Source: Streptomyces sp. NBC_01233
GTDB taxonomy: Bacteria; Actinomycetota; Actinomycetes; Streptomycetales; Streptomycetaceae
Length of the DNA: 64,000 nucleotides
Direction of reading: 5' to 3'
NCBI RefSeq assembly: GCF_035989305.1
Contig: NZ_CP108514.1
Coordinates: 2,161,501 to 2,225,500, forward strand
Numbering within the stretch: the stretch's first letter is position 1; every line of letters begins with the position of its first letter. This document shows positions 23,565 through 26,662 of this stretch, piece by piece. The translations under genes were made by a program, and so were the position numbers. The notes beneath the pieces are model-generated. The model was not told where the DNA came from. It did not search any database and saw only the letters and a list, made by a program, of their open reading frames with translations.

Positions 23565-23906
23565 ATGATCTTCCACATCGTCCCGCTCGCCGACTGGGCC
23601 GCCGCGCCCGGGCTCCCGTTCGCCCCGCCCTCGCTGGACTCGGAGGGTTTCGTGCACTGTTCGGCCGATCGCCCCACGGCGCTCGCGATCGCCGACGCGC
23701 ACTACCGCGGGGTGCCGGGTACGTTGCTCGCGGTGGAGCTCGACGAGGACGCCCTGACCGCGGAGGTCCGCCGGGAGGGTGAATCGGGCGTCCGCTACCC
23801 ACATGTTCACGGCCCGCTGAACCGGGAGGCCGTGATCCACGTGTGGGAGGTCGTACGCACTCCTGGCAGTCCTGCCTCACTGGCCCCATGGGAACCGGTC
23901 CGGTGA
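23565..23906 (+). CDS. DUF952 family protein
   Basis: 113 residues from ATG 23565. It carries the family pattern: MIFHIVPLADW at the start, then LDSEGFVHCSADRP (conserved F-x-H-x-S), LLAVELDEDAL, and YPHVHGPLNREAVIHVWEV. DUF952 proteins are small, with a fold related to ADP-ribosyltransferases or RNA 2'-phosphotransferases by structure comparison, but have no shown function. It is followed 83 bp later by the Rieske gene. Confidence 0.85.
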   Translation: MIFHIVPLADWAAAPGLPFAPPSLDSEGFVHCSADRPTALAIADAHYRGVPGTLLAVELDEDALTAEVRREGESGVRYPHVHGPLNREAVIHVWEVVRTPGSPASLAPWEPVR

Positions 23907-23989
23907 GACGGCGCGGCACGCTTCACCTGAGGCTCGCCGCAGGCCAGGATGCTGCACGCCCTTCCCGGCCACAACGCGAGGAGAGACTC

Positions 23990-24463
23990 ATGAGCGACCC
24001 CACGCACACCGCCCGGCGCACGGTACTGGCGGCGGGCGCGGCCGCCCTGGCAGGCGGTGCGCTCACCGCCTGCGGCAGCGACGGTGAGAAGTCCCCCGAG
24101 GGACAATCGAACGGCTCGGCGTCCGCACCCGCCGCCTCGACCGCCGCCACCCCGGAATCCGGTTCGGCGGGCGCGCAGGTCCTCGCCAAGACCGCCGACG
24201 TGCCCAAGGGCGGCGGCACGATCCTCAAGGAGGAGAAGCTCGTGGTCACCCAGCCCACGGCCGGGTCCTTCCGCTGCTTCACGGCGGTCTGCCCCCACCA
24301 GGGCTGCCTGGTGAACAAGGTGGAGAACGGGAGCATCGACTGCTCCTGCCACGGCAGCAAGTTCGCGATCGCGGACGGCGCGGTGACCAAGGGTCCGTCC
24401 ACCAAGGGACTGGCGGAGAAGAAGATCAAGGTCGCGGCGGACGGCAATATCTCGCTCGCATAG
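23990..24463 (+). CDS. Rieske [2Fe-2S] lipoprotein (Tat-exported)
   Basis: 157 residues from ATG 23990, with GAGGAG upstream. The twin-arginine signal TARRTVLAAGAAALAGGALTAC ends in a lipobox cysteine. A Ser/Ala-rich linker (to about residue 70) leads to the Rieske domain with CPHQGCLV...DCSCHGSKF: two Cys and two His ligands in C-x-H and C-x-x-H spacing. A membrane-anchored electron-transfer subunit is likely; partner unknown. The stop is 16 bp before the IS110 element. Removing the element would place the stop about 37 bp from the next gene. Confidence 0.92.
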   Translation: MSDPTHTARRTVLAAGAAALAGGALTACGSDGEKSPEGQSNGSASAPAASTAATPESGSAGAQVLAKTADVPKGGGTILKEEKLVVTQPTAGSFRCFTAVCPHQGCLVNKVENGSIDCSCHGSKFAIADGAVTKGPSTKGLAEKKIKVAADGNISLA

Positions 24464-24494
24464 CGGCAGGTCAGACACCCCATGTCGTTTGGTG

Positions 24495-25748
24495 TCAAGC
24501 GGCATGGGGGTGGGTGTGGTGGGACCAAGCGGTCGCTTCGTCGTAGCGGGTGCGGGTTTTGAGGCAGCCGTGGAGGATGCCGACGAGCCGGTTCCCGAGC
24601 TGGCGGAGGGCGGGGTTGTAGCCGGCCTCACGGGCGCGTTGCCTGTCGTAGTAGCCGCGGGCGCCGGGTGAGGACCGCAGGGCGGAGAACGCCTGGGTCT
24701 GAAGCGCGTCGGCGAGCCGGTTGTTGCGGACGTAGCGGGCCTGGACGGTGTGGCTCTTGCCGGAGGCCCTGGTGATGGGGCTCGTGCCGGCGTAGTTCTT
24801 GCGGGCCTTCGCGGACGTGTATCGGGTGGGGTCGTCTCCGAACTCGGCGAGCACCCGGGCGCCGACGATCTCACCGATGCCGGGCATCGAGAGGTAGATC
24901 TCAGCGTCCGGGTGCGCCAGAAAATGTGCCCTCACCTGCTCTTCCATCACGGCGATCTGCTCGTTCAACGCGATGATCAGACGGGCGTGAGCGGTGGCGG
25001 CGGCCGCGTAGGCGGCGGTGACCGGCTCGGGCAGGCCGAGCTGCCGCTCACGCAGCGCGCTCTGGACGGTGGCCGCTTTCGCGTCCCGGTTGTGGCGGCG
25101 GTGGCGGGTCAGGACGGCGGTGATCTGGGTGCGGGTCAGCTTCGCCGCCGTGGCCGGGGTGGGTGCCTTGATCAGCAGTTCCAGCGCGTCGGTGCTGGTC
25201 AGGGTCAGGTCCGAGTAGGCGTTCAGGGCGGCGGGGAAGTACTCGCGCAGTGTGGTGCGCAGCCGCTGGAAGGTGCGGGTGCGTTCCCAGATGAGGGTCT
25301 GGTGGGCGCGGGCGACGACCTTGACGGCCTGGGCCGCCTCGCTGTCGCCGGCCACCGGCCGCAGCTGGGCCCGGTCGATGCGGACCATGTCGGCGAGCGC
25401 GTGCGCGTCGCCCTTGTCGCTCTTGGCTCCGGAGGAGCCATACCGTTCCTTGAAGCGGTTGACCTGCCGGGGGTTGACCGCGAACACCTGGTAGCCGGAG
25501 GCGATCAGGGCCTGCACCCACGAGCCGCGGTCGGTCTCGATTGCGACCACGACGCCGGCCGGGTCCAGGTCCTCACCGCCGTGGCGGGCGACGAGTTCGT
25601 GCAGTTTCGCGATGCCCGCCACTCCTTCGGGCAGGTTCGCGGCGGCCAGTTTCCGGCCGGTCTCGTCCTGGACCTCGACATCATGGTGGTCCTCGGCCCA
25701 GTCATCACCGATCAGCAGCAACAGACCCTCCCCGGTCACGTACTTCAC
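24495..25748 (-). CDS. IS110-family transposase (DEDD + Tnp_20)
   Basis: 417 residues. The N-terminal RuvC-like DEDD domain shows IGDDWAEDHHDVEV (first Asp), VVVAIETDRGSW (Glu) and SDKGDAHALADMVR (last Asp pair). A long helical middle follows, and then the C-terminal Tnp_20 domain with the helix-hairpin-helix-like SMPGIGEIVGARVLAEFGD and the serine-containing NYAGTSPITRASGKS. The C-terminal serine (GTSP) and DEDD act together at a composite site in this family. The GTG at 25748 lacks a clear ribosome site and a GTG three codons on is possible. The gene looks intact, so the element may be active. Confidence 0.93.
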   Translation of the reverse strand: MKYVTGEGLLLLIGDDWAEDHHDVEVQDETGRKLAAANLPEGVAGIAKLHELVARHGGEDLDPAGVVVAIETDRGSWVQALIASGYQVFAVNPRQVNRFKERYGSSGAKSDKGDAHALADMVRIDRAQLRPVAGDSEAAQAVKVVARAHQTLIWERTRTFQRLRTTLREYFPAALNAYSDLTLTSTDALELLIKAPTPATAAKLTRTQITAVLTRHRRHNRDAKAATVQSALRERQLGLPEPVTAAYAAAATAHARLIIALNEQIAVMEEQVRAHFLAHPDAEIYLSMPGIGEIVGARVLAEFGDDPTRYTSAKARKNYAGTSPITRASGKSHTVQARYVRNNRLADALQTQAFSALRSSPGARGYYDRQRAREAGYNPALRQLGNRLVGILHGCLKTRTRYDEATAWSHHTHPHAA

Positions 25749-25961
25749 CCAGCGGTGCAGCCTGCGGAAGGCACGGCACGCGGCCTAATGGATCCAGTGC
25801 TCACGCCCCGTGGGGCGGGCACGCCACCCCATCAGCGGTCTGGCCTCCCGGCCGACCAGCAAGGGCACGGTCTGACCTCAGAGCTCGAAGGCTCCGGCGT
25901 CGAAAGTGCTCACCAGCTGGCGGCTACGGAACCGAGCATTCCCCGGTTCCGTAGCTCCCAT
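25749..25961 (-). ncRNA. Candidate bridge RNA region of the IS110 element
   Basis: From the left end inward on the minus strand there is an 11-bp stem-loop (25924-25934 with 25944-25954), then a GAGC/GCTC hairpin near 25885-25898, then a GGTC-GGCC / GGCC-AGACC hairpin near 25838-25861, and a CGCCCC/GGGGCG hairpin near 25806-25821. Flanking this last hairpin are CACCCCAT (25825-25832, + strand) and GCCTAATGG (25783-25791, + strand). They match the right and left insertion junctions, including the core. That is the arrangement of two guides around a stem in a target-binding loop. The strand of the RNA is not settled by the sequence. Confidence 0.5.
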
Positions 25962-25981
25962 TAGGCGTCTACCCTCCCCGG

Positions 25982-26662
25982 ATGGACGATCTGACGCTGG
26001 TACGGGACCACACGGTCTACCGGTGTGTGATGGGTTCCCGGGCGTTCGGGCTGGCGACGGAGGCGAGCGACACCGACCGGCGCGGTGTCTACCTCGCCCC
26101 GACGCCGCTGTTCTGGCGGTTCGAGAAGCCCCCCACGCACGTGGAGGGCCCGCGGGACGAGGAGTTCTCCTGGGAGCTGGAGCGCTTCTGCGCACTCGCG
26201 CTGCGGGCCAACCCGAACATCCTGGAGTGCCTGCACTCCCCCCTGGTGGACGAGCTCACGCCGGTGGGTGAGGAACTGCTCTCGCTGCGCGAGGCCTTCC
26301 TCTCCCGCCGGGCCCACACCACCTTCAGCCGGTACGCCGCCTCCCAGCACGGCAAACTCCTCGCCGACGTCCGCGTCCACGGCGCCCCGCGCTGGAAGCA
26401 CGCCATGCACCTGCTGCGCCTGCTGCTGTCCTGCCGCGACCTGCTGCGCACGGGCCGCCTGAGCATCGATGCCGGCCCGCACCGCGACCGCCTCCTCGCC
26501 GTCCGCCGCGGGGAGCTCGCCTGGGACGAGGTCGACGCCTGGATGGCCCGTCTCCAGGAGGAGACCGAGACCGCCCTGGCCACCACTCCCCTGCCCGCGG
26601 AGCCGGACCTCGCCCGTGTCGAGGACTTCCTGGTGCGGGCCCGCCGCGCGTCAGTCGCGTAG
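25982..26662 (+). CDS. Pol-beta-type nucleotidyltransferase (RlaP-like), copy A
   Basis: 226 residues from ATG 25982, only 20 bp from the IS end. YRCVMGSRAFGLATEASDTDRRGVYL is the G-S-x-x-x-G...S-D-x-D motif of the DNA-polymerase-beta nucleotidyltransferase superfamily. A helical C-terminal part follows (SWELERFCALALRANPNILECLHSP, AASQHGKLLADV). It resembles the RNA-repair-associated RlaP group. It faces its diverged relative (26651-27409) tail to tail, with the 3' ends overlapping by 12 bp. Substrate unknown; the neighbouring NAD/ADP-ribose operon suggests nucleotide or RNA-end chemistry, as inference. Confidence 0.78.
   Translation: MDDLTLVRDHTVYRCVMGSRAFGLATEASDTDRRGVYLAPTPLFWRFEKPPTHVEGPRDEEFSWELERFCALALRANPNILECLHSPLVDELTPVGEELLSLREAFLSRRAHTTFSRYAASQHGKLLADVRVHGAPRWKHAMHLLRLLLSCRDLLRTGRLSIDAGPHRDRLLAVRRGELAWDEVDAWMARLQEETETALATTPLPAEPDLARVEDFLVRARRASVA

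Follow-up and report, generated by a model that had tools for sequence, protein, structure and literature searches.

A streptomycete IS110-group element with a predicted bridge RNA whose target-binding loop covaries with the insertion site

Introduction

IS621 is the described system whose anatomy comes closest to the element studied here. In the part of the IS621 report that deals with the bridge RNA (Durrant et al. 2024, PMC11208160), the RNA is encoded in a long left end (LE) upstream of the recombinase gene, and its target-binding loop precedes its donor-binding loop. The guides include a CT core, and the promoter is rebuilt across the junction of the right end (RE) with LE. The same part of that report has each loop begin with a sense side (5') and end with an antisense side (3'), as read on the transposase strand. 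For the IS110/seekRNA elements, the relevant section of a second paper (Siddiquee et al. 2024, PMC11187229) describes an upstream non-coding region that matches both target strands. That paper gives 315-330 aa for recombinases of the IS621 type and 395-455 aa for the subgroup that contains IS110. It also cautions that recorded ends may be wrong in a number of cases, and its target logos are those of ISfinder entries. In the IS1111 group, a DEDD recombinase is likewise accompanied by a guide RNA, but there the RNA lies mostly downstream of tnp.

Here we describe an IS110-group element of a streptomycete. In the position of its predicted RNA, the order of the loops, the CT core within the guides and the promoter that would be rebuilt across RE-LE, it resembles IS621 as portrayed in the section cited above, and its non-coding region upstream of tnp matches both target strands as in the IS110/seekRNA elements. 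It shares the DEDD recombinase and guide RNA with the IS1111 group, although its RNA lies upstream. Unlike the IS621-type enzymes, the recombinase has 417 aa, and we liken it to IS621 by anatomy and not by alignment. The targets of its subfamily are often gene borders; IS621 is reported to insert in REP sequences. The mechanism is already known from IS621, and the element joins the IS110 bridge-RNA class. We found no description of it in the open-licence full texts searched, which is weak evidence of absence, and it may already have a name in ISfinder.

Results

The window, by which we mean the whole 64-kb stretch of DNA that was analysed, carries the element on the minus strand at 24475..25964. 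Core spacing and junctions delimit it to 1490 bp, counting the CT on the LE side and leaving out the core on the RE side. The recombinase gene (24495..25748, minus strand) has Pfam matches to DEDD_Tnp_IS110 (E 9.1e-36) and Transposase_20 (E 9.2e-14), and aligned relatives are 64-89% identical to its product. Residues D15, D111, D114 and S329-G330 are invariant and E71 is near-invariant among the 17 aligned sequences of A2; we take them to be the catalytic D-E-D-D and SG residues. A phmmer search of the recombinase against the PDB sequences found no relative. For RNA families, the search of the whole window with Rfam gave no match at the gathering score, and the region 25767-25848 gave only a miRNA model far below that score (E 0.25). 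The membership of the element therefore rests on Pfam, anatomy and covariation.

To define the ends we compared copies. The genome of the window (G000) holds six copies at 100% identity, including that of the window, and a seventh at 90%. In all seven the left end reads CCTAATGGG and the right end ATGGGGTGTCT, while their flanks are unlike one another, and the same ends were found in close relatives from other genomes. In distant relatives the end bases vary (ATGGGATGTCT in L096, CTAATCAG at the left of another subfamily) and CTAAT is kept. The most constant parts across subfamilies are the left CTAAT, which is invariant in the 36 aligned leaders, and a GGGRTGTCT-like right end with one-base variants in L137, L139, L167 and L178. 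This constancy indicates a CT core.

The crossover is the CT dinucleotide, LT-CT-AATGGG...GGGGTGT-CT-RT, where LT and RT are the left and right target flanks. On the minus strand, the left core lies at 25963..25964, as given by the guide/flank register and the empty site, and the right core at 24473..24474, as given by junction comparison and the empty site. Both flanks are host DNA. The left one, GGTAGACGC (25965..25973, minus strand), differs between copies, and the right one, GACCTGC (24466..24472, minus strand), starts with the GACC common to six copies with the same RNA and then diverges. The spacing from CT to CT is 1490 bp in four measured copies of G000 and in L112, and 1498 bp in L118. 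The initial annotation had instead removed the element at a duplicated CCCAT, which is no target duplication and cuts each end a few bases short of the CT.

Empty sites agree with this register. Since the region of the relative G012 that is syntenic with the window copy (L061) is too diverged to fix the junction, we used the L003 site, which is uninterrupted in G012; there ATCGACGC-CT-GACC runs through the junction in alignment with the joined flanks of copy L003. L180 lies within a tandem array whose intact units, CACCGCC-CT-AACCCATCC, equal both of its flanks with a single CT. In its upstream flank, three intact units of this 19-bp tandem repeat adjoin the element and display the empty target. 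The dinucleotide is thus present at both ends of the element and in a single copy in the empty site (L180 array, G012).

Some loci are not simple insertions. In the Streptomyces blattellae draft, contigs end at 18 loci (L119-L135, L146), which shows that the element is multi-copy there and breaks the assembly; a single insertion may be counted twice among these loci, once per contig end. In L187, the guide-bearing leader and the matched transposase are not together as they are elsewhere, and the locus looks like a nested or rearranged IS110 pair.

The long non-coding region of the element lies upstream of tnp, with 214 bp between the LE core and the tnp start compared with 20 bp between the tnp stop and the RE core. 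The alignment of 36 leaders and their consensus fold place the predicted bridge RNA at 25758..25956 on the minus strand, with approximate ends. The window leader folds better than 200 of 200 shuffles (MFE z-score -3.61). RNAalifold gave 41 consensus pairs for the 36 leaders, 17 of them with at least one double change, and the conserved predicted fold has two internal loops, of which the target loop comes first. Read in this order on the minus strand, a 5' stem-loop (25923..25956) appears in the fold of the window sequence and lies outside the RNAalifold consensus. It is followed by the target-binding stem and loop (25856..25920), whose consensus helices carry compensatory changes, and by the donor-binding stem and loop (25765..25850), assigned from the consensus fold and the guides. 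Between the donor guides stands an apical hairpin (25797..25822) with an inner stem conserved in the consensus. The consensus energy was -51.45 kcal/mol for the transposase strand and -37.86 kcal/mol for the opposite strand. G-U pairs outnumbered C-A pairs on the transposase strand (124 vs 19) as well as on the opposite one (65 vs 23), so this count does not decide the strand.

An IS110 element with a bridge RNA encoded in its leader had been proposed for this locus beforehand, and the Pfam domains, the conserved fold and the covariation of guides with flanks bear this out. The same annotation pointed to two segments, GCCTAATGG at 25783-25791 and CACCCCAT at 25825-25832 of the plus strand, with a hairpin between them, and read them as the guides of the target-binding loop that cover the whole insertion site. 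Both strings and the hairpin are present as described, and the two strings jointly cover the joined site that had been assumed. GCCTAATGG occurs once per strand in the window and is therefore no casual repeat.

However, both segments are unchanged in copies with different flanks, an outcome that the annotation itself had held to refute its reading. A search of the whole genome for the joined target, lengthened to GCCTAATGGGGTGTCTGACC, found no occurrence with three or fewer mismatches, and the target was not seen in the 800 bases inspected of the syntenic G012 region (L061). The GC that had been put before GCCTAATGG in this target is host flank and reads AC in copy L091. Moreover, on the transposase strand such target guides would have the wrong polarity, and the covariation with the flanks belongs to another loop. 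We therefore give the reading of these segments as target guides almost no chance.

Instead, the segments match the ends of the element itself. On the minus strand, the left donor guide (LDG) ATGGGGTGGC (25823..25832), which contains the former CACCCCAT, is sense to ATGGGGTGTC of RE with one mismatch. The right donor guide (RDG) GGATCCATTAGG (25784..25795), corresponding to GCCTAATGG, is antisense to CTAATGG of LE. The matching parts are ATGGGGTG for RE and CCATTAG for LE. Among the 34 elements with both ends (L142 and L145 have no RE and were left out), RDG is perfect over 7 bases in 31, the exceptions being L159, L163 and L175. It also tracks LE, as seen in the pairs CTAATGG/CCATTAG, CTAATCA/TGATTAG and CTAATGA/TCATTAG. 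LDG is perfect over 9 bases in 15 of the 34 and has one or two mismatches in the other 19, the window copy having one. Only 6 and 8 distinct pairs were available for a permutation test, and 352 and 571 of 20,000 permutations reached the observed match; this support is weak because the element ends hardly vary. The assignment as a donor loop thus draws mainly on complementarity, position and constancy, which point to it more than covariation does.

The strand follows from the same guides. In the circle, RE comes before LE. The transposase strand carries the donor guides in the matching order, with the 5' one in sense to RE and its 3' partner antisense to LE. The annotation had found an order antisense to the transposase, which arose from reading LE before RE; read as RE-CT-LE, the polarity is the canonical one.

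The guides that follow the insertion site lie in the neighbouring loop. The left target guide (LTG) TTTCGACGCC (25896..25905, minus strand) was recognised by covariation with the left flank and matches its own LT plus C at 7 of 10 positions. The right target guide (RTG) TGAGGTCAG (25872..25880, minus strand) was recognised by covariation with the right flank; its AG stands opposite the core CT, and 5 of its 7 non-core positions match its own RT. A further 9-base match to the right flank in the annotation overlaps this RTG and was correct to that extent, while its position was two bases off: AGGTCAGAC at 24468-24476 corresponds to the reverse complement GTCTGACCT at 25870-25878, not 25872-25880.

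Guides were read from the transposase-strand RNA, the left one as the 10 nucleotides that follow GAGCAC and the right one as the 7 that precede AGA. Their counterparts in the flanks were, respectively, the 9 bases adjoining the core on the left together with C and the 7 bases adjoining it on the right. Both guides could be read in 84 of 91 loci (the pattern missed L138, L147, L148, L149, L155, L156 and L164). After dropping L187 and duplicates, 81 distinct sites entered the test, L091-L094 among them; the left flank was available for 70 of the sites and the right flank likewise for 70. With each guide type weighted once, positions 4-9 of LTG gave 4.39 of 6 matches vs 2.56 when permuted (sd 0.157, z 11.6, 39 types), and RTG gave 5.02 of 7 vs 2.59 (sd 0.24, z 10.1, 23 types). 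None of 20,000 permutations reached the observed match for either guide, although guide types are related by descent and these figures overstate their independence. Covariation was also observed within subfamilies, where the observed match was reached by 2 of 20,000 permutations in the GAC group and by 13 of 20,000 in the TTC group.

The register is sharp: a shift by 1-2 bases lowered the mean match from 6.37 to at most 2.9 on the left and from 5.09 to at most 1.97 on the right. No other guide matched better than the own one in 24 of 39 left types (positions 4-9) and in 19 of 23 right types. By position, the right match was 0.96, 0.96, 0.96, 0.99, 0.74, 0.31 and 0.11; only the first four or five bases match strongly, and the last two are no better than non-cognate pairs. 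Guide and flank have changed jointly in L163 (CCGCT/AGCGG), L185 (TGTCGCA/TGCGA), L180 (AGGGTT/AACCC) and L136 (TGCTGTC/GACAGCA). Misfits are the RTG of L167 against its right flank and, on the left, the poor matches of L140 and L143. All these guides lie upstream of tnp, unlike the mostly downstream guide RNA of the IS1111 group. In Prauserella flavalba, three loci (L186, L188 and L189) have nearly the same left flank, which resembles a palindromic repeat, so REP-like repeats of the sort used by IS621 may be what this subfamily targets.

One could also suppose that the matches are subterminal DNA repeats bound by the recombinase, with no guide RNA involved. The segments do repeat the element ends, and their inverted arrangement could by itself make up a protein site. 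Variation matched to the flanks in a separate loop and compensatory base pairs in the consensus fold both speak against this, and the difference in consensus energy between the strands is a softer hint in the same direction. We regard such DNA repeats as very improbable, if slightly less so than target guides at the same place, and retain the guide RNA.

A promoter on this strand would form only in the circle. RE contains TTGACA (24493..24498, minus strand), a putative -35 half found by sequence match, and the -10 would consist of TCT from RE and AAT from LE. As a sequence match only, 34 of 35 elements show TTGACA with no more than one base changed, 16-18 bp upstream of the -10; the exception, L145, has no proper RE. 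In those 34 the -10 reads TCTAAT, except for CCTAAT in L139 and L178 and TCCAAT in L167. Once inserted, the element has TTGACA at its far end; of the flanks scored, that of L182 supplies 5 of the 6 bases and none of the rest more than 4.

Next, we looked at where the copies sit. The window copy is intergenic; it separates a Rieske-like protein gene (23843-24463) from a nucleotidyltransferase-like gene (25982-26662), both on the plus strand and identified by ORF reading. A stop-codon site was scored where an in-frame stop ends a reading frame that is open for 60 codons or more and has coding-like GC3, using thresholds of our own and independently of gene annotation. L187 was retained in this count, and L091-L094 were left out of its first set. 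Such sites made up 16 of the 39 whose guide spells GAC on the right vs 1 of 28 for all other guides (Fisher p 0.0003), and the sole non-GAC site, L167, has CTGA in its flank too. In a second set, 8 of 17 sites were at an in-frame TGA, 4 of these 17 being fragments that have no readable guide. Part of this set had been seen before (L250, L251, L255, L261 and L277, the last of which helped suggest the stop-codon idea), and minus these five places 5 of 12 were at stops (p 0.006 vs 1/28).

In G000, four of the seven copies are at in-frame stops (L003-L006). Judged from their translated tails, the genes that end at the G000 sites include a parE-like, an MMPL-like transporter and a sigma-factor-like gene, the first of them presumably essential. 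A parE-like gene end, GACGCC-TGA, was found in 8 of the 17 loci that were usable among 29. At each such insertion GCC-TGA becomes GCC-TAA because LE starts with AA, as it does in every aligned leader. A left-end fragment of the element in the genome of the window (L029, the same place as L277) is likewise at an in-frame stop codon.

Unoccupied CCTGAC motif sites of the same genome are at in-frame stops as often as occupied ones, 11 of 19 vs 24 of 56 (p 0.30). This control covered 30 of 154 motif places, 11 of the 30 being without CCTGAC. The guide motif alone can therefore explain the preference, and a preference for stop codons beyond what the motif predicts is unsupported by these counts. 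We give an even chance to the view that the placement is a by-product of a guide motif often found at gene ends when the GC content of the genome is high, and that harmless insertion has not been selected for. Against it stand the AA of LE, which turns TGA into TAA each time, and the sister group, which has settled on a different gene-border motif; neither proves selection.

This sister group targets TC-CT-TTC, a reversed Shine-Dalgarno sequence. A start codon of a coding-like ORF lies 6-11 bases from the core on the opposite strand at 7 of 16 sites with TTC guides, and at 4 of 7 sites in one further genome. Among the GAC-group sites, 6 of 39 have a start codon so placed, some farther away (p 0.007 for all TTC sites, 0.03 for the first TTC set). 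More copies of the Shine-Dalgarno type were present in 1 of 394 genomes searched.

Discussion

Ends, core, covariation of guides with flanks, donor match, conserved fold and one empty site in a relative were observed here, and they are best explained by an IS110-group bridge RNA element in which the initially annotated segments form the donor loop and the neighbouring target loop selects the site. We are highly confident in this explanation as a whole. In the mechanism that we propose, excision of the mobile element would join its ends as RE-CT-LE, and at this junction a TTGACA-17-TCTAAT promoter would arise from which the leader is transcribed on the transposase strand. The transcript would be the bridge RNA with its 5' stem-loop, target-binding loop and donor-binding loop. 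At the circle junction, the left donor (RE) would pair with ATGGGGTG(GC) of the donor loop and the right donor (LE) with its CCATTAG. The left target would pair with TCGACGCC of the target loop, and the right target, CT-GACC(TCA), with TGAGGTC-AG; the DEDD recombinase would then exchange strands at CT. Transcription, RNA binding and strand exchange are the steps that we infer. In the GAC-type subfamily, the target is xxGAC-GCC-TGA-C and inserted copies have GCC-TAA, so that the stop codon is kept at gene ends.

A wider idea, which we put forward tentatively and hold to be somewhat less probable than its opposite, is that actinobacterial IS110 bridge RNAs have specialised on translation signals. 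One subfamily would use stop codons (GCC-TGA-C), where the fixed CT|AATGG of LE makes an in-frame TAA from TGA and leaves intact even a likely essential parE-like topoisomerase. The other would use the reversed Shine-Dalgarno sequence (TC-CT-TTC) and leave AGGA with the gene. No account of IS110 elements that aim at stop codons or Shine-Dalgarno sequences turned up in the open-licence full texts searched, which is weak evidence of absence.

The present work corrects the roles of the two loops and maps the exact ends, the core and the two pairs of guides in a bridge-RNA element that is multi-copy in a streptomycete. The element is a candidate for a programmable recombinase of high-GC origin. 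The work also points to a possible and testable link between the choice of guide RNA and harmless insertion at gene borders. If the specialisation on translation signals is true, the RNA guides of these elements would amount to a transferable programme for harmless landing.
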